This document shows positions 4,547 to 27,954 of a stretch of 64,000 nucleotides of DNA, in pieces. The first letter of the stretch is position 1. Every line of letters begins with the position of its first letter. The notes below the pieces were generated by a model, which was not told the DNA's origin, made no database searches, and saw only the letters and a list, made by a program, of their open reading frames with translations. Position numbers and translations under genes: made by a program. Source of the stretch: Gordonia westfalica (GTDB lineage: Bacteria; Actinomycetota; Actinomycetes; Mycobacteriales; Mycobacteriaceae); assembly GCF_900105725.1 (NCBI RefSeq), contig NZ_FNLM01000034.1, positions 4,154,001 to 4,218,000 on the forward strand, in the 5' to 3' direction.

Positions 4547-4564
4547 ATCTCGGATGCTAGCTTA

Positions 4565-4598
4565 TTGAGCACATTCACCGCCAGTGAGCAAATGCTCA
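4565..4598. promoter_or_regulatory. Operator-like palindrome between divergent polyol operons
   Basis: TGAGCA-AA-TGCTCA at 4585-4598 is an inverted repeat with perfect 6-base arms. An extra half site TGAGCA lies 19 bp upstream at 4566-4571. The element sits in the only gap between the dehydrogenase operon and the regulator/transporter operon. This is the expected place for the SorC-type regulator to control both. Binding is inferred. Confidence 0.7.
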
Positions 4599-4621
4599 CG
4601 AGAGAACGGGGGTAAGCCACG

Positions 4622-7011: not shown

Positions 7012-7013
7012 TC

Positions 7014-8860: not shown

Positions 8861-8914
8861 TCGCCGCCCACACCCACCGACTCGAAAACCTCTGAGACAG
8901 AACCGGAGAACATC

Positions 8915-10021
<1,107 letters not shown>

Positions 10022-10026
10022 CCCGC

Positions 10027-10118
10027 TGGTTGAGCGGCGTGCCTTGCTAATTGAGCGGTGTGTCTCTGCTGGTTGAGCGGTGTGTCTCTGCTGGTTGAGC
10101 TCCGTCGAAATCACGCCA
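10027..10118. repeat. Short tandem repeat, TTGAGC...CGTCGAAA family
   Basis: Four TTGAGC cores at 10030, 10051, 10073 and 10095 give a 21-22 bp period, the middle units reading GGTTGAGCGGTGTGTCTCTG. The last unit runs into CTCCGTCGAAAT. The array fills the gap between the convergent transporter ATPase and TSUP genes. The same core recurs at 31.4 kb, so this is one member of a dispersed intergenic family. No terminator-like hairpin with a T tract was found here. Confidence 0.7.
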
Positions 10119-10893: not shown

Positions 10894-10962
10894 AGGTTCC
10901 GAGGGTGCCCGGTGCGTCGGGTGGGGTGATCACCGGGGTGGGTGTGGGGCCTCGTCGCTTAC

Positions 10963-11940: not shown

Positions 11941-12219
11941 GGGTGTCCAGCTGTGCTGGACGTGTTGTCGAACAGTATGCCGAAGTCGGCGGTGGGGAAG
12001 CCGGGGCCTGCTCCGAGATCGGCGGAAATGCCGTCTCCGCGTCCATCAAGCGGCGTATTTCGACCCCCGATCGCCGATGAGCTGCACTTTCATAAAGCGC
12101 AGGCGGCGAAACTCTCCGGCCACGGGCGGGTTTCCGTGCCGTCACGGACGCGGTGTCGAATGGTGCACAGGTCGTGGGAGACCACGACGACCATGCTTCG
12201 TCGACGTCGAGGAGAGCTG
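11941..12219. promoter_or_regulatory. Divergent intergenic region upstream of ribBA
   Basis: This 279-bp gap must hold the promoters of the DUF808 gene and ribBA. No FMN-riboswitch core (GGGGCAG/GGTG, ACCGGCGG, AGTCCGCGA blocks) is recognisable, which is notable upstream of a riboflavin gene. A GGAGAG RBS lies just before the ribBA ATG. No other structure was identified. Confidence 0.4.
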
Positions 12220-13509
12220 ATGAGCGCCATCGAGAACGCAATCGATGCCCTGCGCGCGGGCCGGCCGGTCCTGGTGACCGACGCCGCGGACCGCGAGAAC
12301 GAGGGCGACGTCATCCTGGCCGCCGACCGTGTCAGCACCGAGTGGACCGCGTGGACCGTGCGCAACACCTCCGGCCTGCTATGTGCGCCGATGGCCGGTG
12401 AGCGTGCGGACATGCTCGAACTGCCGTCGATGGTGACCAACAACGAGGACCCCAAGGCGACGGCGTACACGGTGACCGTGGACGCGGCCGAAGGAGTCAC
12501 GACCGGCATCTCTGCCGCCGACCGTGCGCTCACGCTGCGCATGCTGGCCGGGGCCGCATCCGGCCCCCGAGACTTCACCCGGCCCGGGCACGTACTACCC
12601 CTTCGTGCCCGGCCGGGTGGGGTGCTCGAGCGCCCCGGTCACACCGAGGCCGCCGTCGATCTGTGCACGCTGGCCGACGTCGCCCCGGTCGGCGTGATCG
12701 CCGAACTCGTCGCCGACGACGGTTCGATGATGCGCTACCCGCAGGTCGCCGCGATGGGGTCGCGCATGGGACTCCCGGTGCTCACCATCGAGGAGTTGGT
12801 CAACTACCGTCGCGTCCACGACGCGGACCGCTGGTCGGTGGTTCCCCGGGTGCGCCGCGGGGCGGAGACGGTCCTGCCGACCCCGACCGGCGAGCTCCGG
12901 GCGATCGGCTACCGCGACGCCGAGACCGGTGCCGAACACGTCGCGCTCGTGAGCGCGGGGATCACCGGAGAGGGGCTGGACCAGCGCGCCCCGCTGGTGC
13001 GCGTGCACTCCGAATGCCTCACCGGAGAGGCGTTCTCGTCACAGCGCTGCGAATGCGGACCCCAGCTCGACGCGGCGATCGAACGCATCAGTTACGACGG
13101 TGGTGTCGTCGTCTACCTGCGTGGACACGAGGGTCGCGGGATCGGGCTGCTCCAGAAACTGGCCGCCTACCGACTGCAGGATCAGGGCCTCGACACGGTC
13201 GAGGCGAATCTCGAACTCGACGAACCCGTCGACGGACGCGAATACGGTGCGGCAGCGGCAATCCTGGCCGACCTCGGGATCGAGCGCGCACGCGTGATGA
13301 CCAACAACCCCGACAAGGTCCGCGGATTGACCGACTCCGGGATAGAGGTGGCCCAGCGTGTTCCGCTGATCGTGGGTGTCATGCCGGCGAACGTGCGCTA
13401 CCTCGACGCGAAGCGCCGGCGCCTCGGGCACCTGCTGGGCACCATGTCCGGTAGCGGGTTCGACATGAGCCATACGGGTGACTTCTCGGTGGGTTCGCGC
13501 GCGAACTAG
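12220..13509 (+). CDS. ribBA: Bifunctional 3,4-dihydroxy-2-butanone-4-phosphate synthase / GTP cyclohydrolase II
   Basis: Two-domain enzyme of 429 residues supplying both precursors of riboflavin. The RibB domain (about 1-200) has the metal-site DRENEGD, MVTNNEDPKATAYTVTVD and GHTEAAVDL. The RibA domain (about 205-420) has the zinc ligands in CLTGEAFSSQRCECG, plus RGHEGRGIGL and NNPDKV. Both domains look intact. The ATG at 12220 follows GGAGAG and homology starts there, although the frame is open further upstream. No other riboflavin gene is nearby, so it may be a second, accessory copy. Several flavin-dependent enzymes are encoded 5-15 kb downstream. It overlaps the GntR gene tail to tail by 4 bp. 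Confidence 0.93.
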   Translation: MSAIENAIDALRAGRPVLVTDAADRENEGDVILAADRVSTEWTAWTVRNTSGLLCAPMAGERADMLELPSMVTNNEDPKATAYTVTVDAAEGVTTGISAADRALTLRMLAGAASGPRDFTRPGHVLPLRARPGGVLERPGHTEAAVDLCTLADVAPVGVIAELVADDGSMMRYPQVAAMGSRMGLPVLTIEELVNYRRVHDADRWSVVPRVRRGAETVLPTPTGELRAIGYRDAETGAEHVALVSAGITGEGLDQRAPLVRVHSECLTGEAFSSQRCECGPQLDAAIERISYDGGVVVYLRGHEGRGIGLLQKLAAYRLQDQGLDTVEANLELDEPVDGREYGAAAAILADLGIERARVMTNNPDKVRGLTDSGIEVAQRVPLIVGVMPANVRYLDAKRRRLGHLLGTMSGSGFDMSHTGDFSVGSRAN

Positions 13510-14252
13510 GTCCCCCTGACCTCGCGGGATACACCCGAGGTCGAGATGAGGCGAACACGGTCCGACCGAAACAGGTCGAAGGAGTACTCGAAAGGTGTGC
13601 CGGAGTCGTCGCGCGACAACCGCGTGATGGCGAGAAGTGGTCGTCGGACGCCGATTTCGAGCCAGCCGGCTTCACTTCCGCTGGCCGCGCCGACCTCGAT
13701 GATCTCGGTGGTCCGGGTGGCGACCAGTCCGTACCGTGTGCGCAGCAGTTCGTAGAGCGACCCGTCCAGGGGATGTTCCAGGAGACCGGGAACCAGTTCC
13801 ACGGGGAAACAGGCCAGGTCGACCGACAGCGGCGCACCATCGGCGAGTCGGATCCGGCGGACCGCGAACACTTCTGCACCGTCCGTGATCTCGAGGGCCC
13901 GCGCCTCGATCGGGGTCGCCGGACGACGTTCCGCACCGACCACCCGCGTCGCGCTGGCATGTCCGGACTCCGCCAACAACGCGGGGAGGCCGGCAGATTC
14001 GGCCGCATGGCGTTCGACGACATCGGCGCGGATGAATGTGCCACCGCCCCGGCCGGTCCGGCGTTCCAGGATGCCTGCCCGGCTGAGTGGGAGCAGTGCG
14101 CTGCGCAGCGTCGATCTCGACACCGAGAACATCTCGGCCATGTCGCGCTCGGTGCCCAGCCTCGCGCCCGGAATCAGGGTTCCCTGGGCGAGCATCGCGA
14201 GGATGCGGCGGCGCACGTCCTCGGCGACCGGGCCGCCGGTGGTCTCCCCCAT
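13506..14252 (-). CDS. GntR-family (UTRA) transcriptional regulator
   Basis: Regulator of 248 residues. The winged helix covers about residues 8-75 (VRRRILAMLAQGTLIPG, TERDMAEMFSVSRSTLRSAL). A UTRA ligand-binding domain follows (AVRRIRLADGAPLSVDLACFP, TPFEYSFDLFRSDRVRL). The ATG at 14252 is 17 bp downstream of the SDR stop, so it is probably the third gene of a kinase-SDR-GntR operon and a local regulator of that operon and the divergent PLP enzyme. The frame is open far upstream, but that part is only an antisense-like shadow of the SDR gene. Confidence 0.87.
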   Translation of the reverse strand: MGETTGGPVAEDVRRRILAMLAQGTLIPGARLGTERDMAEMFSVSRSTLRSALLPLSRAGILERRTGRGGGTFIRADVVERHAAESAGLPALLAESGHASATRVVGAERRPATPIEARALEITDGAEVFAVRRIRLADGAPLSVDLACFPVELVPGLLEHPLDGSLYELLRTRYGLVATRTTEIIEVGAASGSEAGWLEIGVRRPLLAITRLSRDDSGTPFEYSFDLFRSDRVRLISTSGVSREVRGT

Positions 14253-14269
14253 CCGGGTGTCGCGATGTC

Positions 14270-15052
14270 TCAGGCGGGGATGGCGTCGGGTGACTCGGGG
14301 AGCACCTGGCCCCCGTCGACGGCGATCGCCTGCCCGGTGATGTAACCGGCCTCGCGGGTGGCGAGGAACGCGGCGAGATGACCGATGTCCTCGGGGGTGC
14401 CCAGGGCCTTCATCGGAATGGCCCGGGTCATGCCCGCGATGTAGTCCTCGCCCATCTCGACGAGGCCCTCGGTCAGGACGTTCCCGGGCATGATCGCGTT
14501 GACGGTGACGCCCTGGGCGGCGAGTTCGACTGCGGCCGTGCGCATGAAACCCAACTGAGCGGCCTTCGACGCGCCGTAGTGCGACCAGTTGGGGAACCCG
14601 GTGATCGGGCCCGTGATCGACGAGGTGATGATCACCCGGCCACTGCCCGACTCGGTGAGCGAGGACACGCAGGCCTGCACGGTGAACACCGTGCCCTTCA
14701 CGTTCACGTCGAGGACCTGACTGAGCTGCGCATCGGTCATCGTCTCCAGCGATGCCTCGGGGAAGATGCCGGCGTTGGCGCAGACGACGTCGATCGCCCC
14801 GAAGGCCTCCAGGACCGTACGCGCCATCTCGTCGCACGACGACCGGTTGCTGACGTCGGTCACGACCCCGATGATCCTGCCGTCGCCCACACCGCTGAGT
14901 TCTGCGACAGCCGAATCGATCTCGTCCGATGATCGCGCCGCGATCGCAACGTCGGCACCCGCGCGCGCGAAGACCCCGGCGATGCCGCGTCCGATCCCCT
15001 TGGTGCCGCCGGTGACGATCACCGATCGGTCGGCCAGGCTGAACATGGTCAT
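14270..15052 (-). CDS. Short-chain dehydrogenase/reductase
   Basis: Classical SDR of about 260 residues. TGGTKGIGRGIA is the nucleotide motif near the N-terminus and CANAGIF the NAG segment. The catalytic Ser lies in VIITSSITG, YGASK is the Tyr/Lys pair, and GYITGQAIAVDGG closes the fold. ATG 15052 (MTMFSLADRS) follows AGGAG. ATG 15046 or the more distal 15091 are alternatives. It lies between the kinase and GntR genes in one direction. In this context it could act on a carbonyl product of the phospho-lyase reaction, which is an inference. Confidence 0.85.
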   Translation of the reverse strand: MTMFSLADRSVIVTGGTKGIGRGIAGVFARAGADVAIAARSSDEIDSAVAELSGVGDGRIIGVVTDVSNRSSCDEMARTVLEAFGAIDVVCANAGIFPEASLETMTDAQLSQVLDVNVKGTVFTVQACVSSLTESGSGRVIITSSITGPITGFPNWSHYGASKAAQLGFMRTAAVELAAQGVTVNAIMPGNVLTEGLVEMGEDYIAGMTRAIPMKALGTPEDIGHLAAFLATREAGYITGQAIAVDGGQVLPESPDAIPA

Positions 15053-15103
15053 GATGCTCCTGTGGATGTGCGTGACGGCGGGGATCGGCATGAGGCAGTC
15101 GTG

Positions 15104-16123: not shown

Positions 16124-16412
16124 CGGAACAGTGTCGCCCGAAGTGGTATCCGTGAGCAGACCAAAAGGCGATGTTTAACGTGGCCGTAGCGATCGGCGCG
16201 GAGTAGGAAACGCAGCGGAAACAATCTCCCCTGTTTACTCCTGTTCGTGTTGCCCGCCAATGATTTGCGGCGTAGGAAAGAGGAACACGGGTCAGCCGAC
16301 CTCACGCCTGTGCCTCACGCGCGTCCTCGAGTCGGCCACACCGACCGGGCCGAGCAGACCAAAATGCCGGGTGGCTCTCTCCGCATCATCACTACAGCTA
16401 GGACGATCCCAC
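16124..16412. promoter_or_regulatory. Divergent promoter region, kinase operon / PLP enzyme
   Basis: This 289-bp gap separates the kinase and PLP-enzyme starts. It is AT-richer than its neighbours around 16165-16260 and probably holds both promoters and a GntR binding site. No unambiguous palindrome was seen. An AGGA at about 16400 is placed to serve the GTG at 16413. Confidence 0.4.
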
Positions 16413-17735
16413 GTGAGCTTCTCCAACATCATGGACTCCAACAGCTACACCGGTGGCTCGGTGGGACGCCATGGGGACGGGATCATCGAGGCGCGCGAAC
16501 GGATGCTGGGGCCGGCGTATCGGCTGTTCTACCGTAATCCGGTACATCTCGTGCGGGGCGAGGGGAGCCATCTCTTCGACGCCGACGGCACCCGCTACCT
16601 CGATGCCTACAACAACGTGGCCAGCGTCGGACACTGTCATCCGCATGTCGTCGACGCCGTGATGCGGCAGATGACGTCGATCAACACCCACACCCGTTAC
16701 CTCCACGACGGCATCGTCGACTACTCCGGGCGTCTGCTGGCCACGCTCGGACCGGGGATCGACCAGGTGATGTACGCGTGCACCGGGTCCGAGGCGAACG
16801 ATCTGGCCCTGCGTGTCGCGTCGGCCCACACGGGAGCCTCCGGGGTCATCGTGACGACCGAGGCCTATCACGGCAATACACATGCGGTGACCGCGATCTC
16901 GCCGTCGAACGGTGGAGCGCCGGTCCTCGGTCCGCAGGTCCGCACGGTGCCGCCGCCCGACCCTCGTTCGGCGGGTTCGACCGCTGAGACCTTCGCCGAG
17001 CATGTACGGCGAGCGGCCGACGACCTACAGCGCGCGGGGTTCGGCGTCAGCTGCCTCATCGTCGACACGATCTTCTCCTCGGACGGCATCTTCGCCGACC
17101 CCGATGTCCTCGGCCCCGCCGTCGCCGCGGCGCGCGCGGTCGGGGCGGTGTTCATCGCCGACGAGGTGCAACCGGGCTTCGGCCGGACCGGCGACGCCAT
17201 GTGGGGTTTCGACCGCCACGGAGTGCGGCCCGACATCGTCACGATGGGCAAACCCATGGGCAACGGGCTGCCGGTGTCCGCGATGGCAGCCCGTCCCGAC
17301 GTGCTGGAACGGTTCGCGACGACGCAGCCGTACTTCAACACGTTCGGGGGCAGCCCGGTGTCGATGGCTGCGGCGGCCGCGGTGCTGGACGTGATCGAGA
17401 GCGAGGATCTGCCTGCGCAGGTGACCCGCATCGGTGCTCGGCTCCGCGAGGGGATCACGCGTATCGCGGCCGATCACCCTGCCGTCGGCGACATCCGGGG
17501 AGCCGGGTTGTACATCGGGGTGGAGATCGTGACCGCCGACGCCGCTCCCGATCGCGGGCGTGCCCGTGCGATCGTGGAGGCCATGCGGGACGCGCACGTC
17601 CTCATATCCGTCTGCGGCGAGCACGGAAACGTCCTGAAGATCCGCCCGCCGCTGGTGTTCTCCGACTCCGACGTGGACTGGTTCTGCACGGCGCTGGATT
17701 CCGCGCTGGCAACGACACTCGCGACGGCCGGCTGA
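16413..17735 (+). CDS. Class III PLP enzyme, AGXT2L/ethanolamine-phosphate phospho-lyase-like
   Basis: Fold-type I PLP enzyme of 440 residues. Highly characteristic segments are YLDAYNNVASVGHCHPHVV, INTHTRYLHDGIVDY and TGSEANDLALRVA. These match the AGXT2-like branch that includes ethanolamine-phosphate and 5-phosphohydroxylysine phospho-lyases. FIADEVQPGFGRTG holds the cofactor Asp and TMGKPMGNGLPV the Schiff-base Lys. GTG 16413 is preferred because AGGA lies about 8 bases upstream; ATG 16431 has no RBS. It pairs with the divergent APH-fold kinase, SDR and GntR genes. An ordinary omega-aminotransferase role cannot be excluded. Confidence 0.8.
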   Translation: MSFSNIMDSNSYTGGSVGRHGDGIIEARERMLGPAYRLFYRNPVHLVRGEGSHLFDADGTRYLDAYNNVASVGHCHPHVVDAVMRQMTSINTHTRYLHDGIVDYSGRLLATLGPGIDQVMYACTGSEANDLALRVASAHTGASGVIVTTEAYHGNTHAVTAISPSNGGAPVLGPQVRTVPPPDPRSAGSTAETFAEHVRRAADDLQRAGFGVSCLIVDTIFSSDGIFADPDVLGPAVAAARAVGAVFIADEVQPGFGRTGDAMWGFDRHGVRPDIVTMGKPMGNGLPVSAMAARPDVLERFATTQPYFNTFGGSPVSMAAAAAVLDVIESEDLPAQVTRIGARLREGITRIAADHPAVGDIRGAGLYIGVEIVTADAAPDRGRARAIVEAMRDAHVLISVCGEHGNVLKIRPPLVFSDSDVDWFCTALDSALATTLATAG

Positions 17736-17785: not shown

Positions 17786-18718
17786 TCATCGACCGGTCTC
17801 GGCGACGGTGGGCATGTTCGCCGTCGTGACGTTGCGCCCACTGCTGGCCCGATGTTGCTCTGCAACAACGGCGTCGGTCTTCTCGAGGAAGTCGTCGAGT
17901 TCGGGTCCGAACAACCGGTCGCCGAGACGGGTGGAGAGCAAGTGCTTGCACCATGCGGCGACGGCGACCCAGCCGGGGACGTAGATGCGGCGCTGTCGTC
18001 GCGCGATGCCACGGACAAAAGCGTCGGCACACACGTCGACACCGACTATCTCGTCCAGGGGCGGACCGAGCTTCTTGAGGTAATCGTCGAACACGGACAG
18101 ATCAGACTGGATGTCGCGGATGAGCGGGGTGTCGATCCAGCTCATGTGTGCCGAACCGACGGCGACTCCGAGGCGCCCGACCTCGGCGCGCAACGACGTC
18201 GCCAGATGATCGACAGCGGCCTTGCCGGGTGCATAGGGTCCCATGCCGGGGCCGGGTAGGAATGCGGCCATCGAGGATACCAGCAGTAGGTACCCCCGAC
18301 GTTCGATGATCGAGGGGAGGGCGGCCCGCACGGTGAAGAAGACGCCGTTCACGTTGATGTCGATACCGCGCCGGAAGGTCTCGGGGGCCATGTTCCGGAA
18401 CGAACCGTATGTTCCGACACCGGCGTTGGCCACCACGATGTCGATACCGCCGAATCGCTCGATACCGGCCCGGACGGCGGCGTCGAGCGCGGCATAGTCG
18501 GTCACGTCGGCGACGTACCCGTTCGCGCGGGTGCCGATCGTCGCGGCCACGTCGTCGACGGCGGATCGGTCGATGTCGACGAGGATCAGCCGCGCGCCCG
18601 CTCCGGCGAGACGCAGGGCGGTCTCTTTGCCGATCCCGTTGCCCGCGCCGGTGATCAACGCGACCTTGCCGGTCAGGTCGACCTTCCTGTCTGAACGTGG
18701 GATCGGCAGAAATGCCAT
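17786..18718 (-). CDS. Short-chain dehydrogenase/reductase
   Basis: SDR of 310 residues, longer than classical members by a C-terminal tail. Visible motifs are LITGAGNGIGKETA (NAD(P) loop), VANAGVGTYG, LLVSSMAAF (catalytic Ser) and YAPGK (Tyr/Lys). The tail GWVAVAAWCKHLLSTRLGDRLFGPELDDFL resembles membrane-associating tails of mycobacterial SDRs. It is convergent with the PLP enzyme and 145 bp downstream of the flavin reductase in the same direction. Membership of the flavin operon is uncertain and the substrate is unknown. Confidence 0.82.
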   Translation of the reverse strand: MAFLPIPRSDRKVDLTGKVALITGAGNGIGKETALRLAGAGARLILVDIDRSAVDDVAATIGTRANGYVADVTDYAALDAAVRAGIERFGGIDIVVANAGVGTYGSFRNMAPETFRRGIDINVNGVFFTVRAALPSIIERRGYLLLVSSMAAFLPGPGMGPYAPGKAAVDHLATSLRAEVGRLGVAVGSAHMSWIDTPLIRDIQSDLSVFDDYLKKLGPPLDEIVGVDVCADAFVRGIARRQRRIYVPGWVAVAAWCKHLLSTRLGDRLFGPELDDFLEKTDAVVAEQHRASSGRNVTTANMPTVAETGR

Positions 18719-18863
18719 GGCGGGCTCCTCGGGTGGACCTCTTCCCCGGCTTGCGTGCCAGTATGCGCTCGTGCGTGGGCGGTGTACAGGATGGTTCGAC
18801 GCGGCAACGATGTCGGCGGACCCACTGCGCGGCGCGCACCGAGGGTCGCCGCGCAGTGGGGGA

Positions 18864-19370
18864 TCAGGCGCTGAGCCGGGCGAATGCCGAGCGGTGGAAG
18901 ACGATCGGCTGCTTGGAATGATCGTTTGCGAGACCGGTCACCCGCAGCACGACGATCTGGTGATCGCCTGCGGTGTGCGAACTCTCGATGGCGCACTCGA
19001 AATGGACCGGCGCGTCGTCGAGGAGCAGCGCCCCGCTGGGCAGCACGGTCGTGCCGACCCCGGCGAAGCGCTGTGTCTTGTCCTTGGAGGACAGCTGCCG
19101 GATCACGTCGGTGTGGCTTTCGCCCAGAACCGAGACACCGAGGCTGGGCAGGTTGCGCAGCATCGGCCAGGTGGTCGAACTCTGTTGCACGGCGAACATC
19201 ACCAGGGGTGGCTCCTGGGAGACACCGACGGCGAAGGACGAGGCGACGATGACGGTCGGCTCGGTGTCCGATATCCCGGCCAGTGCCACGACACCGGTGG
19301 GGAAGGCGCCGAACGCCTTTCGCAGTTCAGCACTGTCCAGATCGGTGGTCGGTACCACGTTCGTGCTCAT
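18864..19370 (-). CDS. Flavin reductase (HpaC/DszD-like)
   Basis: Flavin-reductase-domain protein of 168 residues, the normal length, supplying FMNH2 to a partner monooxygenase. Family features are LRKAFGAFPTGVVAL, VIVASSFAVGVSQEPPLVMFAVQ with the flavin-binding SSF segment, LGVSVLGESH and ALLLDDAPVHFECAI. Its ATG overlaps the TGA of the SsuE-type FMN reductase gene (ATGA), so the two reductases are coupled. It lies 7 kb from, and diverges with, the LLM monooxygenase of the same regulon-like cluster. Confidence 0.88.
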   Translation of the reverse strand: MSTNVVPTTDLDSAELRKAFGAFPTGVVALAGISDTEPTVIVASSFAVGVSQEPPLVMFAVQQSSTTWPMLRNLPSLGVSVLGESHTDVIRQLSSKDKTQRFAGVGTTVLPSGALLLDDAPVHFECAIESSHTAGDHQIVVLRVTGLANDHSKQPIVFHRSAFARLSA

Positions 19371-19882
19371 CGGTCACCCGCCGAGACCGTGACGTTTGCC
19401 GAGGCCAGCACGACCGAGCCCCAGCGATCGATCCAGGGCTGGAACGCCTCTGCATCGTCGTAGAGTTTGTCGACGACGTAGAGGCCGGCCGCCGGAACGG
19501 TTGCGCCGAGTTCGACGAGAACCGGCTTCAGGAGCAGGTCGGGTGCCATGAAGTGCGCGGGGCCGGCACCCAGCATCAGCGGGATGGCGGTGACGTCCTG
19601 GAGGCCGTCACTCGTCGAGAACTGGTCGAGGAAGAGCTTCAGTAGCCCGGTGTAGGTGGCCTTGAAGGTTGGTGACCCAAAGACCACGAGGTCGCTGTTG
19701 GCGACGGTCTCGACGGCGGCCGCCACCGCGGAGTCACCCCAGCCGAGCAGACCCGCGCCCAGGTCGACCACGTCGACGACATGGTCGGGCTCCTTGCCGG
19801 TGAGGGTCGACGCCAGCAGGCTCGCCGCCGACAGCGTTCTCGATGCAGGCTTCGGATTGCCTGCCACAACGGAAACGATCAC
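19367..19882 (-). CDS. NADPH-dependent FMN reductase (SsuE/EmoB-like)
   Basis: Flavodoxin-like FMN reductase of 171 residues. The N-terminal VSVVAGNPKPASRTLSAA is the FMN phosphate loop. VVFGSPTFKATYTGLLKLFLDQF is the family's signature Y-x-G-x-L-K segment, and LGAGPAHFMAPD follows. It is coupled by ATGA overlap to the HpaC-type reductase. Enzymes of this class (SsuE, MsuE, EmoB) feed LLM-type monooxygenases, which fits the NtaA-family enzyme at 26.6 kb. Two unrelated FMN reductases side by side are unusual. Confidence 0.88.
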   Translation of the reverse strand: MIVSVVAGNPKPASRTLSAASLLASTLTGKEPDHVVDVVDLGAGLLGWGDSAVAAAVETVANSDLVVFGSPTFKATYTGLLKLFLDQFSTSDGLQDVTAIPLMLGAGPAHFMAPDLLLKPVLVELGATVPAAGLYVVDKLYDDAEAFQPWIDRWGSVVLASANVTVSAGDR

Positions 19883-19961
19883 GATGCTCCCTTCGAATGT
19901 CGCGAGATGCGTTCTCCTGCAGAGTGCGCGGGCGACATTGCCGAATGGTCAACCGATTATT

Positions 19962-20819
19962 TCACCCAGGTTGCGCGAGGCGAACCGGTCCTTCCGGGTC
20001 CGACTCCTGCGAAATCTCATTGGTGCACAACGATTCTTCCGGCGCAGGAGCCTGTTCCGGCTCGGCGCACCACGTCACGTCGGAGTTGTCGATCTGTGAT
20101 TCGAAGCGGATTCGGTCCGCCCGGAAGCGGTCGAAGACGATCTCCACCGGCGTGCCGTCGGCGGTGGTGTAGAGGATCTCGCGCGAGAGCAGCGTCTCGC
20201 CGGGACGGACGTCGAGCAGGCGGGCGGTTCTCTCGTCGGCACGTTCGGCGCCGATGGAGACCGAGGCGCCGCCCGGTGCGACCCCGAAGAACTCGGCGAG
20301 TGTCCGTGCCATCGACATCGGCTTGTCCCGAAGGTCATTCGGGTCGGCGTTGAAACGCGGAGAGAAATAGGCGCTGCGCATCCCGATGATCTCGTCGTTC
20401 GCGATGAAGGAGTTCTCGACGAGACGGACGACGTCGTCGTCGATCTGTAGACGTTCGCGGATGAGCGGGAAGGTCGGCACGATGCACTGGTCGGTCACCT
20501 GGATGTGAACCAACTCGCCGCCGGTCGCGGAGATATCGTCCAGTGCGACACCGAGATCCCGGCGATTGACTCGCGTACCGACACGAGGCCGGCGGATGAC
20601 GACGCCGGTCTCACTCAGCTCGTTCAGGGCAGCGCGCACCGAGCCGCGGCTCGAGTTGAACATGATCATGAGGTCTTCTTCGACCAGTTGCGCGTCGATG
20701 TCGATGGTGCCGTTGCGAATCGAGGCGAGGATGAGGTCTCGGACGCGCCGGGAGGACACCTGACGCCCACGCGCGGAGCCGCCGCGCGAGCGGGGGTGGA
20801 ACGGGGGTGGTGTCGTCAT
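19962..20819 (-). CDS. GntR-family transcriptional regulator with UTRA domain
   Basis: Regulator of 285 residues. The winged helix covers about 22-85 (VRDLILASIRNGTIDIDAQL, FNSSRGSVRAALNELSETG). A UTRA effector domain (about 95-250) contains SREILYTTADGTPVEIVFDRFRADRI. The C-terminus has an unusual acidic, proline-rich tail (EPEQAPAPEES). It is divergent from the peptide-type ABC operon and reads toward the two flavin reductases 79 bp downstream. This position makes it the probable regulator of the whole uptake/monooxygenase module. Confidence 0.88.
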   Translation of the reverse strand: MTTPPPFHPRSRGGSARGRQVSSRRVRDLILASIRNGTIDIDAQLVEEDLMIMFNSSRGSVRAALNELSETGVVIRRPRVGTRVNRRDLGVALDDISATGGELVHIQVTDQCIVPTFPLIRERLQIDDDVVRLVENSFIANDEIIGMRSAYFSPRFNADPNDLRDKPMSMARTLAEFFGVAPGGASVSIGAERADERTARLLDVRPGETLLSREILYTTADGTPVEIVFDRFRADRIRFESQIDNSDVTWCAEPEQAPAPEESLCTNEISQESDPEGPVRLAQPG

Positions 20820-20871
20820 GGGTATGACTTCCGATCTTCCAACAGCGGGGGTTGAACTGCCGATGGGTACT

Positions 20872-20885
20872 GAGTCTAAGGACTC
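20872..20885. promoter_or_regulatory. Candidate GntR operator, GAGTC-TAAG-GACTC
   Basis: A perfect 5-base inverted repeat with a 4-base centre lies in the 291-bp divergent region 20820-21110 between the GntR gene and the importer operon, 53 bp upstream of the GntR start. Nearby is a direct repeat CAACAGATC(G/A)AG at about 21065-21092. Spacing and position fit a GntR half-site pair, but binding is inferred. Confidence 0.5.
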
Positions 20886-21110
20886 TTGCGAAGATCAGCG
20901 CGGGCAAGTTGTGCGCGTCACATTCGGCGCAAAAAAGATCTCGTCGATGCCGAACGGCCCGTTGACCTGCGGCTACGCGCCGATGATCACGAATGTGAAC
21001 CCGCGCAATTGATCAGTCACGCCAAGACGCGGGTTTCGAAACAAACCGACCACAGGATCGGCACTCAACAGATCGAGACCCAACAGATCAAGTCCTAGAT
21101 GGGAGATCGA

Positions 21111-22271
21111 GTGACCGTCGATATCAGCGTCGACCCGGGCATCGTCGACCCGGGCGCTGTCGATTCACGACGCGCGACGACAACCGCCGGTGGCGGCAGT
21201 GCCGGGACGAAGGGGTCCGCAGCCGGGGCGTTGTGGTCGCGTATTTCCGAATGGGCCTGGATCGGGCGTGCGGCGGGTCGGGGAATCGTCAACTTCCTGA
21301 TCTTCGTGATCGTCGCATTCTTCCTCGTCCAACTGATCCCCGGCGATCCGCTGGTGTCGGCATCAGGTGGTCGACTGTCCGGTGCTGCGCTCGAACAGGC
21401 TCGAGAGGCATACGGCCTCAACGGTTCTCTGGCTTCACAGTTCTGGGCGTATCTGACCTCGTTGTTCAGTCTCGATCTCGGCAGCTCGATCGCCACCGGC
21501 CGCCCGGTCGTCGAGGACATGGCCACCCGGGTGCCCGCGACCTTGGAACTCATCGGTGCCGGACTGTTCTTCGCCTGTCTGATCAGCCTGCCGATGTCCT
21601 ACCTGATCGTGACCCGACCGACCAATCGGTTCTCCAAAGTGCTTCGCTCCTACGCGAGTTCGGCAGGCGCGATCCCCGAGTACGTCGTCGGCATCCTGTT
21701 CCTGTTCGTCTTCTTCGCCACCTTGGCCTGGGTCCCGGCCCCGTCCGGACGACTCGACCCGATTCTCATGCCGCCGGCGGAGGTCACCGGATTCCCGGTC
21801 CTCGACGCCTTCATCGCGGGAGACACCGCTGCGGCCAACTCCTACATCGCGCACCTGATCCTGCCGGTGGCGGTGATGACCGTGTCGCACTCGGCGATCC
21901 TGGTGAAGTCGTTGGTGCTGGCACTCGACACCGAGATCGACAGCTCGGCAACGCGTTTCCGGATCGCCTCGGGCGCTCCGCGACGGGTGGTGATCCTGAG
22001 CATCTACCGCAGGGCACTGCCTTCGGCGGTCGCGATGCTCGGCATGATCTTCGGCCTGCTCCTCGGCGGCGCGGTCGTCCTCGAATCACTGTTCGGTCTC
22101 GGCGGTCTGGGTCAGTACGCGGTCGACGCGGTCCGCTCGTCGGATGTGTTCGCCCTCCGGTCATTCCTGGTCGTCATCGCCGCCCTGTGTCTGATCGTCT
22201 GCTTCCTCACCGAGGTGGCCACCGGTCTTCTCGATCCCCGTCGCCGCGACTCGCGAAACCAGGAGGTCTGA
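21111..22271 (+). CDS. Peptide/nickel-type ABC transporter permease (DppB-like)
   Basis: Permease of about 386 residues of the DppB class. The first hydrophobic segment is NFLIFVIVAFFLVQLIPGDPLV, followed by the family-typical REAYGLNGSLASQFWAYL. The C-terminal half contains GAVVLESLFGLGGLGQYAVDAV. GTG 21111 has GGGAG five bases upstream and is preferred over ATG 21099, which lacks an RBS. An acidic and glycine-rich N-terminal extension of about 45 residues precedes the first helix. It opens the importer operon that ends with the LLM monooxygenase. Confidence 0.87.
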   Translation: MTVDISVDPGIVDPGAVDSRRATTTAGGGSAGTKGSAAGALWSRISEWAWIGRAAGRGIVNFLIFVIVAFFLVQLIPGDPLVSASGGRLSGAALEQAREAYGLNGSLASQFWAYLTSLFSLDLGSSIATGRPVVEDMATRVPATLELIGAGLFFACLISLPMSYLIVTRPTNRFSKVLRSYASSAGAIPEYVVGILFLFVFFATLAWVPAPSGRLDPILMPPAEVTGFPVLDAFIAGDTAAANSYIAHLILPVAVMTVSHSAILVKSLVLALDTEIDSSATRFRIASGAPRRVVILSIYRRALPSAVAMLGMIFGLLLGGAVVLESLFGLGGLGQYAVDAVRSSDVFALRSFLVVIAALCLIVCFLTEVATGLLDPRRRDSRNQEV

Positions 22272-22272
22272 C

Positions 22273-23148
22273 ATGGTCATGGCACCCCTTTCCACGATGA
22301 CGGAATGCCCCGATACGCTGCGGAGTTCCGGCAAGACGGCCGGGCTTCGCGACTACACGGCTCTCATCCCGTTCGCTCTCCTGCTGCTTCTCGCGGTGTT
22401 CGGGCCGATGCTGGCGCCGCAGTCGGCCACCGAGGTGGTCGGCACCCCGTCGACCGCGCCGTCGGGCGACCACTGGTTCGGCACCGACTCCAACGGATTC
22501 GACGTGCTCTCCAGGACACTCACCGCGTTCCGTCTCGACATCCTCATCGCCATCGGCGTGACGGTCCTCGCTACGGCCGTGGGCATCGCCATCGGATCGA
22601 TCGCCGGCATGTACGGCTCGAAGGGCGGGCTACTCGGCGCGATCGCGGCGACGCTCGGACGCACCATCGATCTGGTCCAGGCGATGCCGGTGATGATCGG
22701 CGGCTTGGTCATCGTCTCCTTCTTCGGCCGCAACCCGGTGGTCATCGCATTGGCACTCGCGTTGGTGCTCATGCCATTCCAGGGCAGGCTGATGCGAACC
22801 GAGGTGCTGCGGACGCGGAACGACGGCTTCGTGACCGCTGCGCGGATGAGTGGCGAATCGGAGTTCCGCATCCTGATGCGCCACGTGATCCCGAACTCGT
22901 GTGCTCCGGTCCTGGAGAACGCGTCGGCGATCTTCGGAATGGGGATCATCTTCTGCGCCGGCCTCGGCTTCCTCGGCGTCGGTATCCCGCTGCCGACGGC
23001 GGAATGGGGCAACATGCTCGCCGACGGAGCGGCGGACGCCGCGGTCGGACGCTGGTGGCCCGCCCTGTTCCCGGTGCTGGCCCTCGCCTACTCGGTGTGG
23101 GCGGCTTCCCGGGTCACCACCTTCATCTCACGCCGTCGCGGCATCTGA
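22273..23148 (+). CDS. Peptide/nickel-type ABC transporter permease (DppC-like)
   Basis: DppC-class permease of 291 residues. An N-terminal helix is LIPFALLLLLAVFGPMLAP. A periplasmic stretch carries the class hallmark HWFGTDSNGFDVLSRTL. The EAA-type cytoplasmic loop includes FVTAARMSGESEFRILMRHVIPN, and LGVGIPLPTAEWGNML is also typical. It follows the DppB-like gene by a single base and forms the second half of the membrane pore. Confidence 0.87.
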   Translation: MVMAPLSTMTECPDTLRSSGKTAGLRDYTALIPFALLLLLAVFGPMLAPQSATEVVGTPSTAPSGDHWFGTDSNGFDVLSRTLTAFRLDILIAIGVTVLATAVGIAIGSIAGMYGSKGGLLGAIAATLGRTIDLVQAMPVMIGGLVIVSFFGRNPVVIALALALVLMPFQGRLMRTEVLRTRNDGFVTAARMSGESEFRILMRHVIPNSCAPVLENASAIFGMGIIFCAGLGFLGVGIPLPTAEWGNMLADGAADAAVGRWWPALFPVLALAYSVWAASRVTTFISRRRGI

Positions 23149-23202
23149 TCCCGGCGCAATCGTCACTCTCACAACCCTTCCCAGAACGGAGTCATCGATC
23201 TC

Positions 23203-24822
23203 ATGAAACGTCTGTCCACCATGGTGAGCGGAACCGCGCTCGCCCTCGCCGTCGCACTCACACTCAGTGCGTGCGGTGGCGGGTCGTCGAACAATTCCGC
23301 CGAGGGCGGCGTGGTCATCGTGACCGCGGCCCAGCCCCCGAGCTTCAGCTACGAGACGAGCGCAACCGGTTACGAGGCCGCGGAGTTCTTCCTGAACACC
23401 GGCGCCACACTCATCCGCAACCCGTACATCGCGGGATCGGACGGGCTCTCGGCACACCAGGAACTCTTCAAGTTCGAGCCGGTGCTGGCCAAGAGCTATG
23501 AGGTGAGCCCCGATGGCAAGGTCTACACCTTCCACCTCAACACCGAGGCCAAGAGCGCCGCGGGTAACGCCCTCGACGCCGACGACGTGATCTTTTCGTT
23601 CAAGCGCAAGTTCGAGGTCGACACCAGCATCGTGTCGTTCGTCAGTGCCCCGGTGATCACCTCGCCCGACCAGGTCAAGAAGGTCGACGACGCCACCGTC
23701 ACCATCTCCATCGCCGATCCTTCGCACGGCTTCACGCTGCTGTCGCTGCTGGCCAACACCCCGTACGCCATCTATGACTCCGAGGTGCTGACGGCGAACG
23801 CCACCGCGGACGACCCGTACGGTGTCGAGTACTCGAAGACCAACGCGGACTTCGGCTTCGGGGCATACAAGCTGAGCAGCTACACCCCCGGCCAGCAGAT
23901 GGTCTACGAGGCCAACCCCGGGTACGCCCTCGGTGAGCCCGAGGTCAAGCGCGTCGTCCAGCGCGTCGTCGCCGACGCCGGCCAGCGGTCGAACCTCGTC
24001 AAGAGCGGCGATGCATCTGTCGCCACCCAGCTGCGTCCTGCAGACCAGGTCGCCCTGCGCGATGCGAACGCCGCCCAGATCTTCACCGTGCCGAGCAACG
24101 CCTATGTCTACGTGCCGCTGACCACCACCATGGCTCCGTTCGACAACGTCGAGGTCCGCCGCGCGTTCTCCTACGCAGTCCCGTACGACGCGATCATGAA
24201 AGACGTCTACAAGGGCCGGCTGGGTCCGATCTCGTCGATCCTCAACGACACGCTTCCCGACTACAACGGCAGCGGACTGAAGAGCAACACCACCGATCCG
24301 GCGAAGTCGCTGGAGATCCTGCGCAACGCCGGAATCACCACACCCGTCAACTTCGAGCTGACCGTCAACAACGCCGTCCCGGACCTCAAGGAGACCGCGG
24401 TTCAGATCCAGACCGCGGCTCGTGCAGCCGGATTCGAGGTCACGCTCAACGAGGTGAACTCGGCCGTGTTCCAGGAGGGGCTCGCCAACAAGACCTTCCA
24501 GGCGTCGATGGGCCGTGACTACGCGGTTGTGCAGTCCCCGCCCTACGTGCTGTCGCTGTTCTACACCCCGGGTTCTCCCATCAACTGGCCGGACTTCGAC
24601 TACGCGCCGCTGAACAATGCGGTCGCAGCGGGCAATTCCTCCGGCGAGCCGCTCACCCCGGCCGCATGGGGCAAGTGGAATGAGGCCGAGCGAATCCTGC
24701 AGGACCAGATGCCGACCGTGTACATCGGCTATGTGCAGCCGCTCAACGCATTTGCCAACGGTGTCGAGGGCTACGTCTTCCGCACCGACAGCGTGATCGA
24801 CTACTCGGTGCTGAAGCCATGA
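23203..24822 (+). CDS. ABC transporter substrate-binding lipoprotein, family 5
   Basis: Family 5 solute-binding protein of 539 residues with a lipoprotein signal ending in lipobox TLSAC (Cys24). The mature part shows EVSPDGKVYTFHLNTEAK, LDADDVIFSFKRK and a C-terminal half with VEVRRAFSYAVPYDAIM, all typical of DppA/OppA/EppA-like proteins. It defines the importer's specificity, which need not be peptides. Relatives bind nickel chelates, EDTA, opines and glutathione. Its stop overlaps the next ATG (ATGA). Confidence 0.88.
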   Translation: MKRLSTMVSGTALALAVALTLSACGGGSSNNSAEGGVVIVTAAQPPSFSYETSATGYEAAEFFLNTGATLIRNPYIAGSDGLSAHQELFKFEPVLAKSYEVSPDGKVYTFHLNTEAKSAAGNALDADDVIFSFKRKFEVDTSIVSFVSAPVITSPDQVKKVDDATVTISIADPSHGFTLLSLLANTPYAIYDSEVLTANATADDPYGVEYSKTNADFGFGAYKLSSYTPGQQMVYEANPGYALGEPEVKRVVQRVVADAGQRSNLVKSGDASVATQLRPADQVALRDANAAQIFTVPSNAYVYVPLTTTMAPFDNVEVRRAFSYAVPYDAIMKDVYKGRLGPISSILNDTLPDYNGSGLKSNTTDPAKSLEILRNAGITTPVNFELTVNNAVPDLKETAVQIQTAARAAGFEVTLNEVNSAVFQEGLANKTFQASMGRDYAVVQSPPYVLSLFYTPGSPINWPDFDYAPLNNAVAAGNSSGEPLTPAAWGKWNEAERILQDQMPTVYIGYVQPLNAFANGVEGYVFRTDSVIDYSVLKP

Positions 24823-25730
24823 CCGCGCTGACCGAGGACACCACGGCGGCCGTCGGTGATGCAGAGAGCGACATGACGGGCAGCAACGTCACGAGCAACG
24901 GCCCGGTCCTCGAGGTCACCGATCTGACCATCCGTTACGGCGGGGTGGAGAAGATCCACCCGACCTCGTTCACGATCGGGCGGCGCGAGCGGGTCGCGAT
25001 CGTCGGCGAGTCCGGCTCGGGGAAGTCGAGCATCGCCAACGCACTCGGCGGGTTCATCCCGCCGGGTGTGGGCGAGGTGTCGGCGGCGACGTTGTCGCTG
25101 TCGGGCCGCTCGCTGCTGGCAGAGAAGGCTCAGCAGATTCCGGCTCGGCGCCAGGGGATCTCGATGATCTTCCAAGATGCGATGAGCTCACTCGATCCGA
25201 TCTGGTCGGTGGGCAGCCAACTGATGGCCGTTCTACCGAAGAGCAGGTACGGATCACGGAAAGACCGTGCGGCGGCAGCCGAGGCCTGCCTGGAGCAGGT
25301 CGGCATCGTCGAACCCCGTCGGGTGATGTCGTCGGTGCCGGGGCAGCTCTCGGGAGGTATGCGTCAGCGCGTCATGATGGCCATCGCGCTGGCCTCCGAG
25401 CCCGAACTGCTCATCGCGGACGAGCCGACGAGCGCCCTCGACGCATCGCTGGCGGTATCGGTGATGGAGCTGATGACCAGCCTGACACTCCAGAACGGGG
25501 CGTCGCTGGTCTTCATCACCCACGACATCGCCCTGGCGCGTCGCTTCGCCGACAAGGTTCTGGTCATGCAGGCAGGCAACGTCGTGGAGACCATCGCGGC
25601 TGCGGACCTCGATCACGCCACCCACCCGTACACGCGGGGACTGCTGGAATGCATGCCCACGCTGAGTTCCGCTCAGCTGGACCGCCTTCCGACCCTCGAC
25701 ACGGTGATGAGAGAGGAGACCGCAGCATGA
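24819..25730 (+). CDS. Peptide-type ABC transporter ATP-binding protein (DppD-like)
   Basis: ATPase of 303 residues. An atypical acidic N-terminal leader of about 25 residues precedes the domain. Walker A is GESGSGKSS, the Q-loop IFQDAMSSLDPIW, the signature LSGGMRQRVMMAIAL, Walker B LLIADEPTSALD and the switch His is in THD. The C-terminus HPYTRGLLECMP is the oligopeptide-class signature. It overlaps both neighbours by ATGA and pairs with the following ATPase. Confidence 0.9.
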   Translation: MTALTEDTTAAVGDAESDMTGSNVTSNGPVLEVTDLTIRYGGVEKIHPTSFTIGRRERVAIVGESGSGKSSIANALGGFIPPGVGEVSAATLSLSGRSLLAEKAQQIPARRQGISMIFQDAMSSLDPIWSVGSQLMAVLPKSRYGSRKDRAAAAEACLEQVGIVEPRRVMSSVPGQLSGGMRQRVMMAIALASEPELLIADEPTSALDASLAVSVMELMTSLTLQNGASLVFITHDIALARRFADKVLVMQAGNVVETIAAADLDHATHPYTRGLLECMPTLSSAQLDRLPTLDTVMREETAA

Positions 25731-26500
25731 GCACGATCATCGAGGTCGTCGACGTGCACAAGCAGTACGGGCGAAAGGTGACCGCCGTCGGCGGTGTGAC
25801 CACCAAGTTGGAGAGTGGCCGCGCAACCGGTATCGTCGGCGAAAGCGGTTCCGGCAAGTCCACTCTCGGCAAGATGATCGTCGGACTCACCGCGCCGACG
25901 TCGGGGCAGATCCTGGTCGACGGCCGCGATCTCTCCCGGCTGCTCGAGCGGCGTCCCGGCCGTCTCGAGTACCGCCGCAAGGTGCAGCTCGTGGCCCAGG
26001 ACACCACGACGACGTTCGATCCGCGTCGAGTCGTCCGCGAGGCGATCCGACGCCCCGCGCAGATCCTCGGCGGGCTGGACGAGAAGGCGGCGGACGCCGC
26101 CGTGGACGCCATCATCGACGAACTCGGTATCGCACCCGAACTCGTCGAACGGTTTCCGCACCAGCTCTCCGGCGGTCAGCGGCAACGGCTTTCGATCGCA
26201 CGTGCACTCGTCGTCGGTCCGGACATCCTCGTCTGCGACGAGGCGGTGAGCGCGCTCGACGTGTCCGCGCAGGCGGTGGTCCTGAACCTGCTCAAGGGCT
26301 ACGTGAAGACGCATTCGCTCGGCCTGGTCTTCATCTCGCACGGCCTGCCGGCCACCGCGTTCATCACCGACGACCTGCTGGTGATGAACCGCGGCAAGGT
26401 CGTCGAGTCCGGCGAGACGATGGCGATCCTCGACGCGCCGTCGAACGACTACACGCAGACCCTCATCGGCGCCTACCAGGCCATGGAAGCTGCGGCCTGA
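25727..26500 (+). CDS. Peptide-type ABC transporter ATP-binding protein (DppF-like)
   Basis: Second ATPase, 257 residues starting at the ATG at 25727 that overlaps the previous stop. An upstream in-frame start would lie inside the DppD gene. Motifs are GESGSGKST, LSGGQRQRLSIARAL, Walker B ILVCDEAVSALD (Ala-Val where Pro-Thr is usual) and SHGLPATAF in the switch region. The C-terminal oligopeptide-specific extension is short. A 74-bp gap with a GACAGGAGA RBS leads to the monooxygenase gene. Confidence 0.9.
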   Translation: MSTIIEVVDVHKQYGRKVTAVGGVTTKLESGRATGIVGESGSGKSTLGKMIVGLTAPTSGQILVDGRDLSRLLERRPGRLEYRRKVQLVAQDTTTTFDPRRVVREAIRRPAQILGGLDEKAADAAVDAIIDELGIAPELVERFPHQLSGGQRQRLSIARALVVGPDILVCDEAVSALDVSAQAVVLNLLKGYVKTHSLGLVFISHGLPATAFITDDLLVMNRGKVVESGETMAILDAPSNDYTQTLIGAYQAMEAAA

Positions 26501-26574
26501 CCCGCTGACTCGCCAGGCCGATCCGGCCGGCAGACAACACATCACACAACCATTTCTCACGACAGGAGATCGCA

Positions 26575-27909
26575 ATGTTCCACATGGGTTGGTTCCTCGG
26601 AGACGGCTTCGGCATTCACCCCTGGAGCCCGACGAACGGCGACGGTCCGTGGACCGGCACCAACCACCTGGACTGGATGAAGCCCGACATCCACGTCGAC
26701 ATGGCCAGGAGCCTCGAGCGTGCCGGGTTCGACTACATCCTCATCGAGGACACCTCGATGGTCGAGGACTCCTACAAGAACTCCGCCGAGACCTCACTGC
26801 GTCGCGGCTTCATGGCCCCCAAGAACGATCCGCTGCCGCTGGTCCCGCTGATGACCCAGCAGACCAAGCACATCGGCATCATCCCGACCGTCTCGACCAT
26901 CCAGTACCCGCCGTTCCTGGCTGCCCGCGCCTTCACCACGCTGGATCACCTCACCGAGGGTCGTGTGGGCATGAACGTGGTCACCAGCGTCACCGACCGC
27001 GTCGCCCAGAACTTCGGTTACGAAAGGCATCTCGAGCACGACGAGCGCTACGAGATGGCGATGGAGTGGATCGACGTCGTCAAGGCATTGCAGAACTCGT
27101 GGGAGGACGGCGCCGTCATCGCCGACCCCTACGCCGGCGTCTACGCAGACCACACCAAGGTCAATCCGATCGAGTTCGTGGGTAAGTACTTCAAGTGCCG
27201 TGGCCCGCTGAACACGATCCCGGGTCCGCAGCGCGACGTGCCGGTGTGCTCGGCCGGCAGCTCGGAGCTCGGTCGCGTGCTCGCCGCCAACTACGACGAC
27301 ACCCAGATCGCCATCGTCAAGGACGCCGCGGACGCAAAGACGTACCGCGAGAACATCCGTGCCCGAGCCGCTGCCGCCGGACGCAACCCCGACGACATCA
27401 AGATCCTCTTCATCGCGACCCCGACCATCGCGGCCACCGATGCCGAAGCCCAGGCTGCTTACGAAGCGGCCCAGGCGTTCCGGAAGACGGACAAGGCCAT
27501 CGAGTACAACCTGTGGAACATGTCCTACACCTCGGGTGGTCGCATCGACTTCGGTGCCATCGATCCCGATACCCGTGTGGGCGACATCGACCTCAGCAAG
27601 CAGAACGGCGAATACACTTCGATCGCCGGACTGTTCGGCGGTCGCGAGGACGAGACGCTGCGTGAGGTCGTCGCGAGCAGCTTCCAGGTGAAGGACATGG
27701 GCCTCATCGGCTCACCGTCCACCATCGCGGACAAGATGGGCGAGATCATGGAAGAGGCCGGCGGCGACGGCTTCCTGTTCTACCTGCCCACCACCCGCAT
27801 GAACCTGGCCATGATCTCCGACGGCCTGGCTCCGGAGCTGCGTCGTCGCGGCCTCATCCGCGAGGAGTACACCGGCTCGACCCTGAAGGAGAACCTGCGC
27901 GCCTTCTGA
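26575..27909 (+). CDS. LLM-class flavin-dependent monooxygenase, NtaA/SnaA/DszA family
   Basis: FMNH2-dependent monooxygenase of 444 residues, full length for this family. HMGWFLGDGFGIHPW opens the barrel. LDHLTEGRVGMNVVTS matches the family's GR-x-G-x-N-x-VTS flavin-site signature, and HDERYEMAMEWIDVVKAL and VCSAGSSELGR follow. Family members cleave C-N or C-S bonds in nitrilotriacetate, EDTA, dibenzothiophene sulfone and related compounds. It is the last gene of the importer operon and is followed by a strong hairpin. Reduced FMN would come from the two reductases encoded at 18.9-19.9 kb. The substrate is unknown. Confidence 0.9.
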   Translation: MFHMGWFLGDGFGIHPWSPTNGDGPWTGTNHLDWMKPDIHVDMARSLERAGFDYILIEDTSMVEDSYKNSAETSLRRGFMAPKNDPLPLVPLMTQQTKHIGIIPTVSTIQYPPFLAARAFTTLDHLTEGRVGMNVVTSVTDRVAQNFGYERHLEHDERYEMAMEWIDVVKALQNSWEDGAVIADPYAGVYADHTKVNPIEFVGKYFKCRGPLNTIPGPQRDVPVCSAGSSELGRVLAANYDDTQIAIVKDAADAKTYRENIRARAAAAGRNPDDIKILFIATPTIAATDAEAQAAYEAAQAFRKTDKAIEYNLWNMSYTSGGRIDFGAIDPDTRVGDIDLSKQNGEYTSIAGLFGGREDETLREVVASSFQVKDMGLIGSPSTIADKMGEIMEEAGGDGFLFYLPTTRMNLAMISDGLAPELRRRGLIREEYTGSTLKENLRAF

Positions 27910-27919
27910 TCGGAAAACA

Positions 27920-27954
27920 CTGTGCCCCGCATGCCTCGGTGTGCGGGGGCACAG
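27920..27954 (+). terminator. Intrinsic-type terminator hairpin after the LLM operon
   Basis: CTGTGCCCCGCA (27920-27931) pairs with TGCGGGGGCACAG (27942-27954), with one bulged G and a 10-base loop, directly after the monooxygenase stop. No T tract follows, as is common in actinobacteria. It closes the importer/monooxygenase transcription unit. Confidence 0.8.

Follow-up and report, generated by a model that had tools for sequence, protein, structure and literature searches.

Several flavin-dependent oxygenases are encoded together with genes for transport or cofactor supply. In the Photobacterium lux-rib operon, riboflavin-synthesis genes are placed with the luciferase that consumes reduced flavin mononucleotide (FMNH2), and the CmoJ/YtnJ operon of Bacillus subtilis also holds an importer and a riboflavin-related gene; CmoJ/YtnJ itself is a related monooxygenase that cleaves C-S bonds in cysteine salvage and is served by a flavin reductase. 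We know of no Opp-type importer accompanying DszA/BdsA, DmoA, LadA or HcbA1. The ethylenediaminetetraacetate (EDTA) system, as we understand it, unites the EppA importer with EmoA and EmoB, and four cationic EDTA-binding residues are given for EppA (PMC7312458). Here, a divergent gene set of Gordonia westfalica is analysed, which lies in 64,000 nucleotides of contig NZ_FNLM01000034.1 (positions 4,154,001 to 4,218,000, hereafter the window, whose numbering is used throughout) from a 6.4 Mb genome. One strand encodes, in this order, permease, permease, lipoprotein, ATPase, ATPase and monooxygenase, and the opposite strand a GntR regulator, an SsuE-type FMN reductase and an HpaC-type flavin reductase (Table 1). 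This module is real, functionally coherent and larger than described in the first-pass annotation, whose named genes were all recovered by Pfam and NCBIfam with the families and strands given there. We are largely confident that it couples import to oxidation with a dedicated flavin supply; the whole reading favoured here, a self-contained, locally regulated module for scavenging a nitrogen compound, is probable, and nitrogen rather than sulfur or carbon as the element obtained is a tentative choice.

The evidence for a module is its inheritance as a unit. Among 59 Gordonia genomes, 11 gave monooxygenase matches at E <= 1e-90 and ten hold an orthologue (84-100% identity, own genome included), the sole match in G030 being a 41% relative and not an orthologue. 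A lipoprotein orthologue (E <= 1e-60, 76-100%) was detected in exactly those ten genomes, split across two contigs in G034, and not in any of the remaining 49. At class level, at least 9 of 344 genomes (own included) carry the lipoprotein at E <= 1e-85, in a survey that scored at most four candidates per genome and may therefore have missed some. Eight distant lipoprotein relatives (39-45%) all lie beside both permeases, both ATPases and at least one monooxygenase of 40-48%, accompanied by a GntR gene in five cases, a flavin reductase in four and an FMN reductase in one. An importer kept without the monooxygenase, set beforehand as the refuting result, was searched for and not seen, both being present in 10/10 Gordonia carriers and 8/8 distant relatives. 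The proposed grouping of importer, monooxygenase and two reductases is thus borne out by unit inheritance in Gordonia and recurrence in distant relatives. Most Gordonia carriers show the full nine-gene synteny, whereas outside the genus the core consists of importer and monooxygenase, joined by the GntR gene and the reductase pair in some loci.

These distributions bear on whether an ordinary oligopeptide importer and an unrelated monooxygenase are neighbours by chance. The pairing is not rare: the window's genome encodes seven SBP_bac_5 proteins and ten TIGR03860 genes above cut-off, and two of the seven, including the module's, adjoin such a gene, so that the combination is itself a recurrent plan; moreover, L036 and L038, with monooxygenases of 45-46%, lack an importer in the DNA examined. 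Nevertheless, the identical distribution of monooxygenase and lipoprotein across the 59 genomes and the eight pairings in eight distant relatives make chance highly improbable, and the lipoprotein does not look like a dipeptide-binding protein of the DppA type. Its lipobox Cys24 is invariant in 11 sequences, the position of DppA Arg355, which we take to be a ligand-site arginine in line with the title of 8z1z, falls in an unaligned insertion, and the position of Asp408, by which DppA anchors peptides, is occupied by V442 (valine in nine sequences, isoleucine in two). Loss of this aspartate served as an argument against dipeptide binding in another clade (PMC3295651). As a separate observation, the second peptide-type binding protein of this genome that adjoins such genes (G000:C34:40944-46784) stands beside two TIGR03860 monooxygenases.

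The monooxygenase is a member of the NtaA/DmoA family (TIGR03860, 363.3 bits against a cut-off of 279.7), with a model of pLDDT 93 (predicted local distance difference test). By sequence, its best solved relatives were DmoA (216 bits), LadA (207), DszA/BdsA (200) and HcbA1 (181), all at 29-34% identity, followed by NtaA-like, YtnJ and MoxC (165), RcaE (145), EmoA (125), SfnG (38) and RutA (33). A 40-sequence profile returned nearly the same order (DmoA 319, EmoA 176), EmoA being the weakest among the solved full-length enzymes of the group. The likeness to EDTA degradation noted in the first-pass annotation extends to the types of component, and a specific kinship with that system is not supported. 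The scores against the RutA (TIGR03612, 60.9 bits; cut-off 498.3) and SfnG (TIGR04021, 58 bits; cut-off 382.95) equivalogs fall below both cut-offs. The O2-side motif F/L-T/S-NxV-A-F/L/Y, described for the flavin-N5-peroxide enzymes RutA, CmoJ, DmoA and DszA (PMC8234197), is matched at all positions but the last by L56, T105, N134-V135-V136 and A227, and T105, N134, V136 and A227 are kept in 40/40 sequences. Residues at the FMN-site positions of DszA are largely conserved, and FMNH2-dependent O2 chemistry is predicted.

Two other substrate classes were weighed on these data. In organosulfur scavenging, the cell would obtain sulfur from an S-alkyl or sulfone compound taken up by the importer, whose C-S bond the enzyme would cleave in the manner of CmoJ, DmoA or DszA. 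However, His20 and His316, the substrate/catalytic residues of DszA (PMC11134501), align with N21 and T319, so that the enzyme differs from DszA/BdsA at these residues; no desulfinase or sulfonate-type importer is encoded among the module genes, and the partners at related loci are RutA-like enzymes and amidases. We consider this explanation unlikely. A second possibility is the catabolism of an aminopolycarboxylate, metallophore or opine, in which the Opp-type lipoprotein would bind a free chelator or an opine, from which the monooxygenase would strip carboxymethyl groups; the distance of EmoA argues against it, as does the mean pLDDT of just 72 in the lipoprotein model, and it seems improbable.

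The flavin supply extends beyond the pair of reductases. Coupling of their genes by an ATGA-type junction was confirmed as a four-base overlap at 19367-19370. Copies of the SsuE-type reductase (77-95%) adjoin the module in seven of the nine other Gordonia carriers, and the HpaC/HsaB-type reductase lies beside an FMN_red gene or the module in Gordonia and in some other loci. The first-pass annotation had overlooked a linked RibBA gene, in which both the 3,4-dihydroxy-2-butanone 4-phosphate (DHBP) synthase (259 bits) and the GTP cyclohydrolase II (205 bits) are full length. It is the third RibBA-type gene of the genome, the other two being 52-54% identical to it. Whereas all 59 Gordonia genomes have RibBA matches at E <= 1e-110, copies of at least 88% occur in only six (own included, the five others at 88-95%), all of them module carriers, and copies of 63-68% in three more (G003, G030 and G063). 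For each of the nine copies of at least 63%, an FMN_red copy is found no more than 6 kb away; in the last three genomes the distance is about 0.5 kb, with a flavin reductase in between. A divergent RibBA-like gene lies directly downstream of the monooxygenase in the carriers G003, G028 and G034; the GTP cyclohydrolase part of this gene is only half matched in both copies tested (L020:11352-12380 and L045:11391-12368), and the gene of G003 matches that of L020 (G. rhizosphera) at 100%. RibBA-type linkage is therefore seen in nine of the ten carriers (full RibBA in six, divergent RibBA-like gene in three), the tenth being the truncated locus of G018. The trio of FMN reductase, flavin reductase and RibBA recurs at three further loci with differing oxygenases (L073, L082 and L083): at L073 (G030) the oxygenase belongs to the NtaA/DmoA family (393 bits), L082 has a RutA-like enzyme, and at L083 (G063) an NMT1-type binding protein is present and no oxygenase was recognised in the 11.5 kb examined.

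A nitrogen compound is favoured because close relatives of the monooxygenase sit with sugar-type importers and RutA-like enzymes. In four of the five sugar-importer loci (L024, L027, L028 and L029; monooxygenase 67-70%) a RutA-like enzyme (326-347 bits) follows the monooxygenase within 1 kb, and the sequence of the fifth, L025, ends before such a neighbour could be seen. In L082:3-12038 (G003), the RutA-like monooxygenase, truncated by the locus end, scores 442 bits over 276 residues; the same strand encodes a CN-hydrolase, an amidase, an MFS transporter, an isochorismatase-family protein and a sugar-type importer, and then, about 9 kb downstream of the monooxygenase, the reductase-RibBA trio. 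These neighbourhoods are associations and not substrate evidence. A bolder reading is that the module defines an undescribed pathway for N-heterocycles, in which the monooxygenase would generate a flavin-N5-oxide, one reductase would make FMNH2 and the other recycle the N5-oxide, and RibBA would replace lost flavin, the cassette being common to RutA-like and window-type enzymes that recruit peptide-, sugar- or NMT1-type importers; this reading is improbable.

Linked genes further to the left were also absent from the first-pass annotation. Aminotransferase copies of 64-100% occur in 5/59 Gordonia genomes, all carriers and each copy adjoining the module (the one in G034 with one internal TGA), and other matches at E <= 1e-120 reach 51-56%. 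GntR regulator 2 (60-63%), short-chain dehydrogenase 2 (SDR2, 70%) and the APH kinase (52-53%) have homologues, together with the aminotransferase, on the far side of the monooxygenase in two loci in which the window's lipase flank was not seen, L021 (G. polyisoprenivorans) and L045 (G028); the kinase homologue of L017 reaches 73%. Kinase and aminotransferase match opposite ends of the PRK06148/PRK06149 fusion families, below cut-offs, and could act as a kinase and phospho-lyase pair.

In the scavenging module that we favour, the SBP_bac_5 lipoprotein would bind a small polar organic compound, the Opp/Dpp-type ATP-binding cassette (ABC) importer would carry it into the cell, and the monooxygenase would cleave it with O2 through a flavin-N5-peroxide. 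The two dedicated reductases would deliver FMNH2 and the accessory RibBA would boost flavin synthesis for them, while the GntR regulator at the shared intergenic region would govern both arms. The substrate would most likely be a nitrogen compound such as an N-heterocycle, a cyclic amide or similar, and the kinase/aminotransferase pair may complete nitrogen release from an amino-alcohol fragment. Gene content, joint inheritance and motifs are what the sequences show, whereas the reaction, the parts played by RibBA, GntR and the kinase/aminotransferase pair, and the class of substrate are inferred.

Several observations weigh against this reading. The top-scoring solved relatives cleave C-S bonds (DmoA, DszA) or oxidise alkanes (LadA), and the last position of the O2-side motif, F/L/Y elsewhere, is I245 (isoleucine in 18, leucine in 13, methionine in seven and valine in two of the 40 sequences). 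None of the four full-length RutA-like neighbours reaches the equivalog cut-off of 498, and positions 10111-10893 encode a member of the TauE/SafE family, whose name refers to sulfite export. The kinase, the aminotransferase and SDR2 could also form an amino-alcohol locus of their own that simply adjoins the module. The left half of the module is dispensable in G018, since in this single-contig genome the lipoprotein, ATPases and monooxygenase were found and the permeases, GntR, reductases and window-type RibBA were not (L044, L080). Among 15 named loci whose monooxygenase reaches at least 65%, nine have a peptide-type importer (L021 ends at a contig edge), five a sugar-type one and one none nearby, so that close monooxygenase relatives occur without this importer in six. 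Finally, the arms of the candidate operator are intact in three of seven aligned Gordonia sequences, carry one mismatch in two and are broken in two.

The apparent exchange of importers among close relatives had likewise escaped the first-pass annotation. The sugar-type binding protein was tested in L024, where it is a Peripla_BP_4 protein, and L025, L027, L028 and L029 cluster with L024; the ATPase of these loci is probably RbsA-like. Among 11 named loci with a monooxygenase of 44-48%, six have a homologous lipoprotein, one a distant one (25%), two are cut short by the sequence edge but show importer genes, and two show no importer in the DNA examined. In a midpoint-rooted tree of 86 rows (14 of them in no group, long rows flagged), Gordonia falls within Microbacteriaceae diversity and the sugar-importer loci in the same clade, which suggests, on the strength of this tree, that the module was transferred into Gordonia and that importers were exchanged among relatives. 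A paralogue of 48%, also unnoticed before, lies 4.5 kb outside the window (L043:12144-13451; G000:C34:4148144-4149451) on the same strand as an NMT1-type binding protein, an ATPase and two permeases. In L031, L033, L034 and L039, four to seven family monooxygenases match per locus, often next to the same importer.

Table 1. Module genes, linked genes and sequence elements (window positions)
Feature	Position	Strand	Basis
Accessory RibBA (DHBP synthase + GTP cyclohydrolase II)	12217..13509	+	Both Pfam domains full length
GntR-UTRA regulator 2	13506..14270	-	Pfam
Short-chain dehydrogenase 2 (SDR2)	14270..15091	-	Pfam
APH-type kinase, like kinase part of PRK06149	15104..16123	-	Pfam APH; NCBIfam below cut-off
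Class III aminotransferase / possible pyridoxal phosphate (PLP) phospho-lyase	16260..17735	+	PRK06148/PRK06149 C-terminal part, below cut-offs
Short-chain dehydrogenase, not conserved with module	17786..18718	-	Pfam
HpaC/HsaB-type flavin reductase (Flavin_Reduct)	18864..19370	-	PF01613
SsuE-type FMN reductase (FMN_red)	19367..19882	-	PF03358
GntR-UTRA regulator, divergent from import operon	19962..20819	-	Pfam/NCBIfam
Inverted repeat AACCCGCG-N22-CGCGGGTT, candidate operator	20998..21035	.	Repeat search
Permease B (BPD_transp_1)	21099..22271	+	Pfam
Permease C (BPD_transp_1)	22273..23148	+	Pfam
Lipoprotein solute-binding protein (SBP_bac_5)	23203..24822	+	Pfam; lipobox Cys24
ATPase D (ABC ATPase)	24819..25730	+	Pfam
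ATPase F (ABC ATPase)	25727..26500	+	Pfam; ATGA overlap start
NtaA/DmoA-family FMNH2-dependent monooxygenase	26575..27909	+	TIGR03860, 363.3 bits
Hairpin 3' of monooxygenase, without T run	27920..27954	+	Read from sequence

The left edge formerly set at 17786 had to be moved, as it takes in a dehydrogenase that is not conserved, with a homologue (79%) among the named Gordonia loci only in L018 of G. amicalis, and leaves out the linked genes at 12217-17735. The lipoprotein and ATPase D genes overlap at 24819-24822, the start of ATPase F is most likely the ATGA overlap at 25727 rather than the mechanical open reading frame start at 25649, and the true start of the aminotransferase is probably downstream of 16260. 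The terminator claimed after the monooxygenase is present as a hairpin (12 bp, one bulge), but it lacks a T run and is not among the calls of the intrinsic-terminator scan. The GntR regulator may bind in the divergent intergenic region, where the inverted repeat has one match in the window and none in 100 shuffles, its longer form occurs once in the genome, and all seven aligned Gordonia sequences retain the neighbouring GTCAC and CGAAACAAA. At 21016-21042, a statistically weak GTCAC-n17-GAAAC has a spacing of two helical turns that, we presume, resembles GlnR half-sites. An Rfam scan of the window gave no family at gathering score.

Further to the left, window positions 583-10021 (FGGY kinase, sugar-binding regulator and SBP_bac_1 protein) resemble a locus for a sugar or sugar alcohol that has no relation to the module, and the TauE/SafE-family and DUF808 genes at 10111-11940 separate it from RibBA; L022 (Curtobacterium) and L044 also have a DUF808-like homologue close to the module. 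A PF09995 rubber-oxygenase/MpaB-type protein, tested in L019 (11495-12352), lies there between monooxygenase and lipase, with homologues in L018, L030 and L044 and none seen in the window's list of open reading frames.

The plan of the module is already known from the EDTA system and others. With the former it shares an Opp-type ABC importer, an NtaA-family monooxygenase and a flavin reductase, that is, the plan and not the substrate; it differs by its linked RibBA, its two GntR genes and a pair of reductases that do not share a fold. EmoA is a distant relative (125 bits), and nothing in the module points to a chelator substrate. With DszA/BdsA, DmoA, LadA and HcbA1 (181-216 bits), the enzyme shares fold, family and, largely, the O2-side motif, but the substrate histidines of DszA are absent from it. 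CmoJ/YtnJ scores 165 bits, and its operon has an importer of a different family and is not known to include RibBA. The RutA pathway shares the flavin-N5 chemistry, and RutA-like enzymes occur with the reductase-RibBA cassette or beside window-type monooxygenases; however, TIGR03612 gives the module enzyme a score of only 61 bits, and the module genes include no amidase-type hydrolase. For the enzyme clade, the supply by two reductases plus RibBA and the substrate, no published description was found in the searchable literature. For many flavin monooxygenases of this family, annotation names no substrate; the module links one clade of them to an importer, two reductases and a riboflavin-synthesis gene, which reduces a substrate screen to a single binding protein and a single enzyme. 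Should the reductase-RibBA cassette prove real, it would show a possible way in which cells cover the flavin demand of two-component oxygenases and provide a marker for finding more of them. The Photobacterium lux-rib operon serves light emission and is not known to include an importer; of riboflavin-synthesis genes, the module of G. westfalica links RibBA alone.

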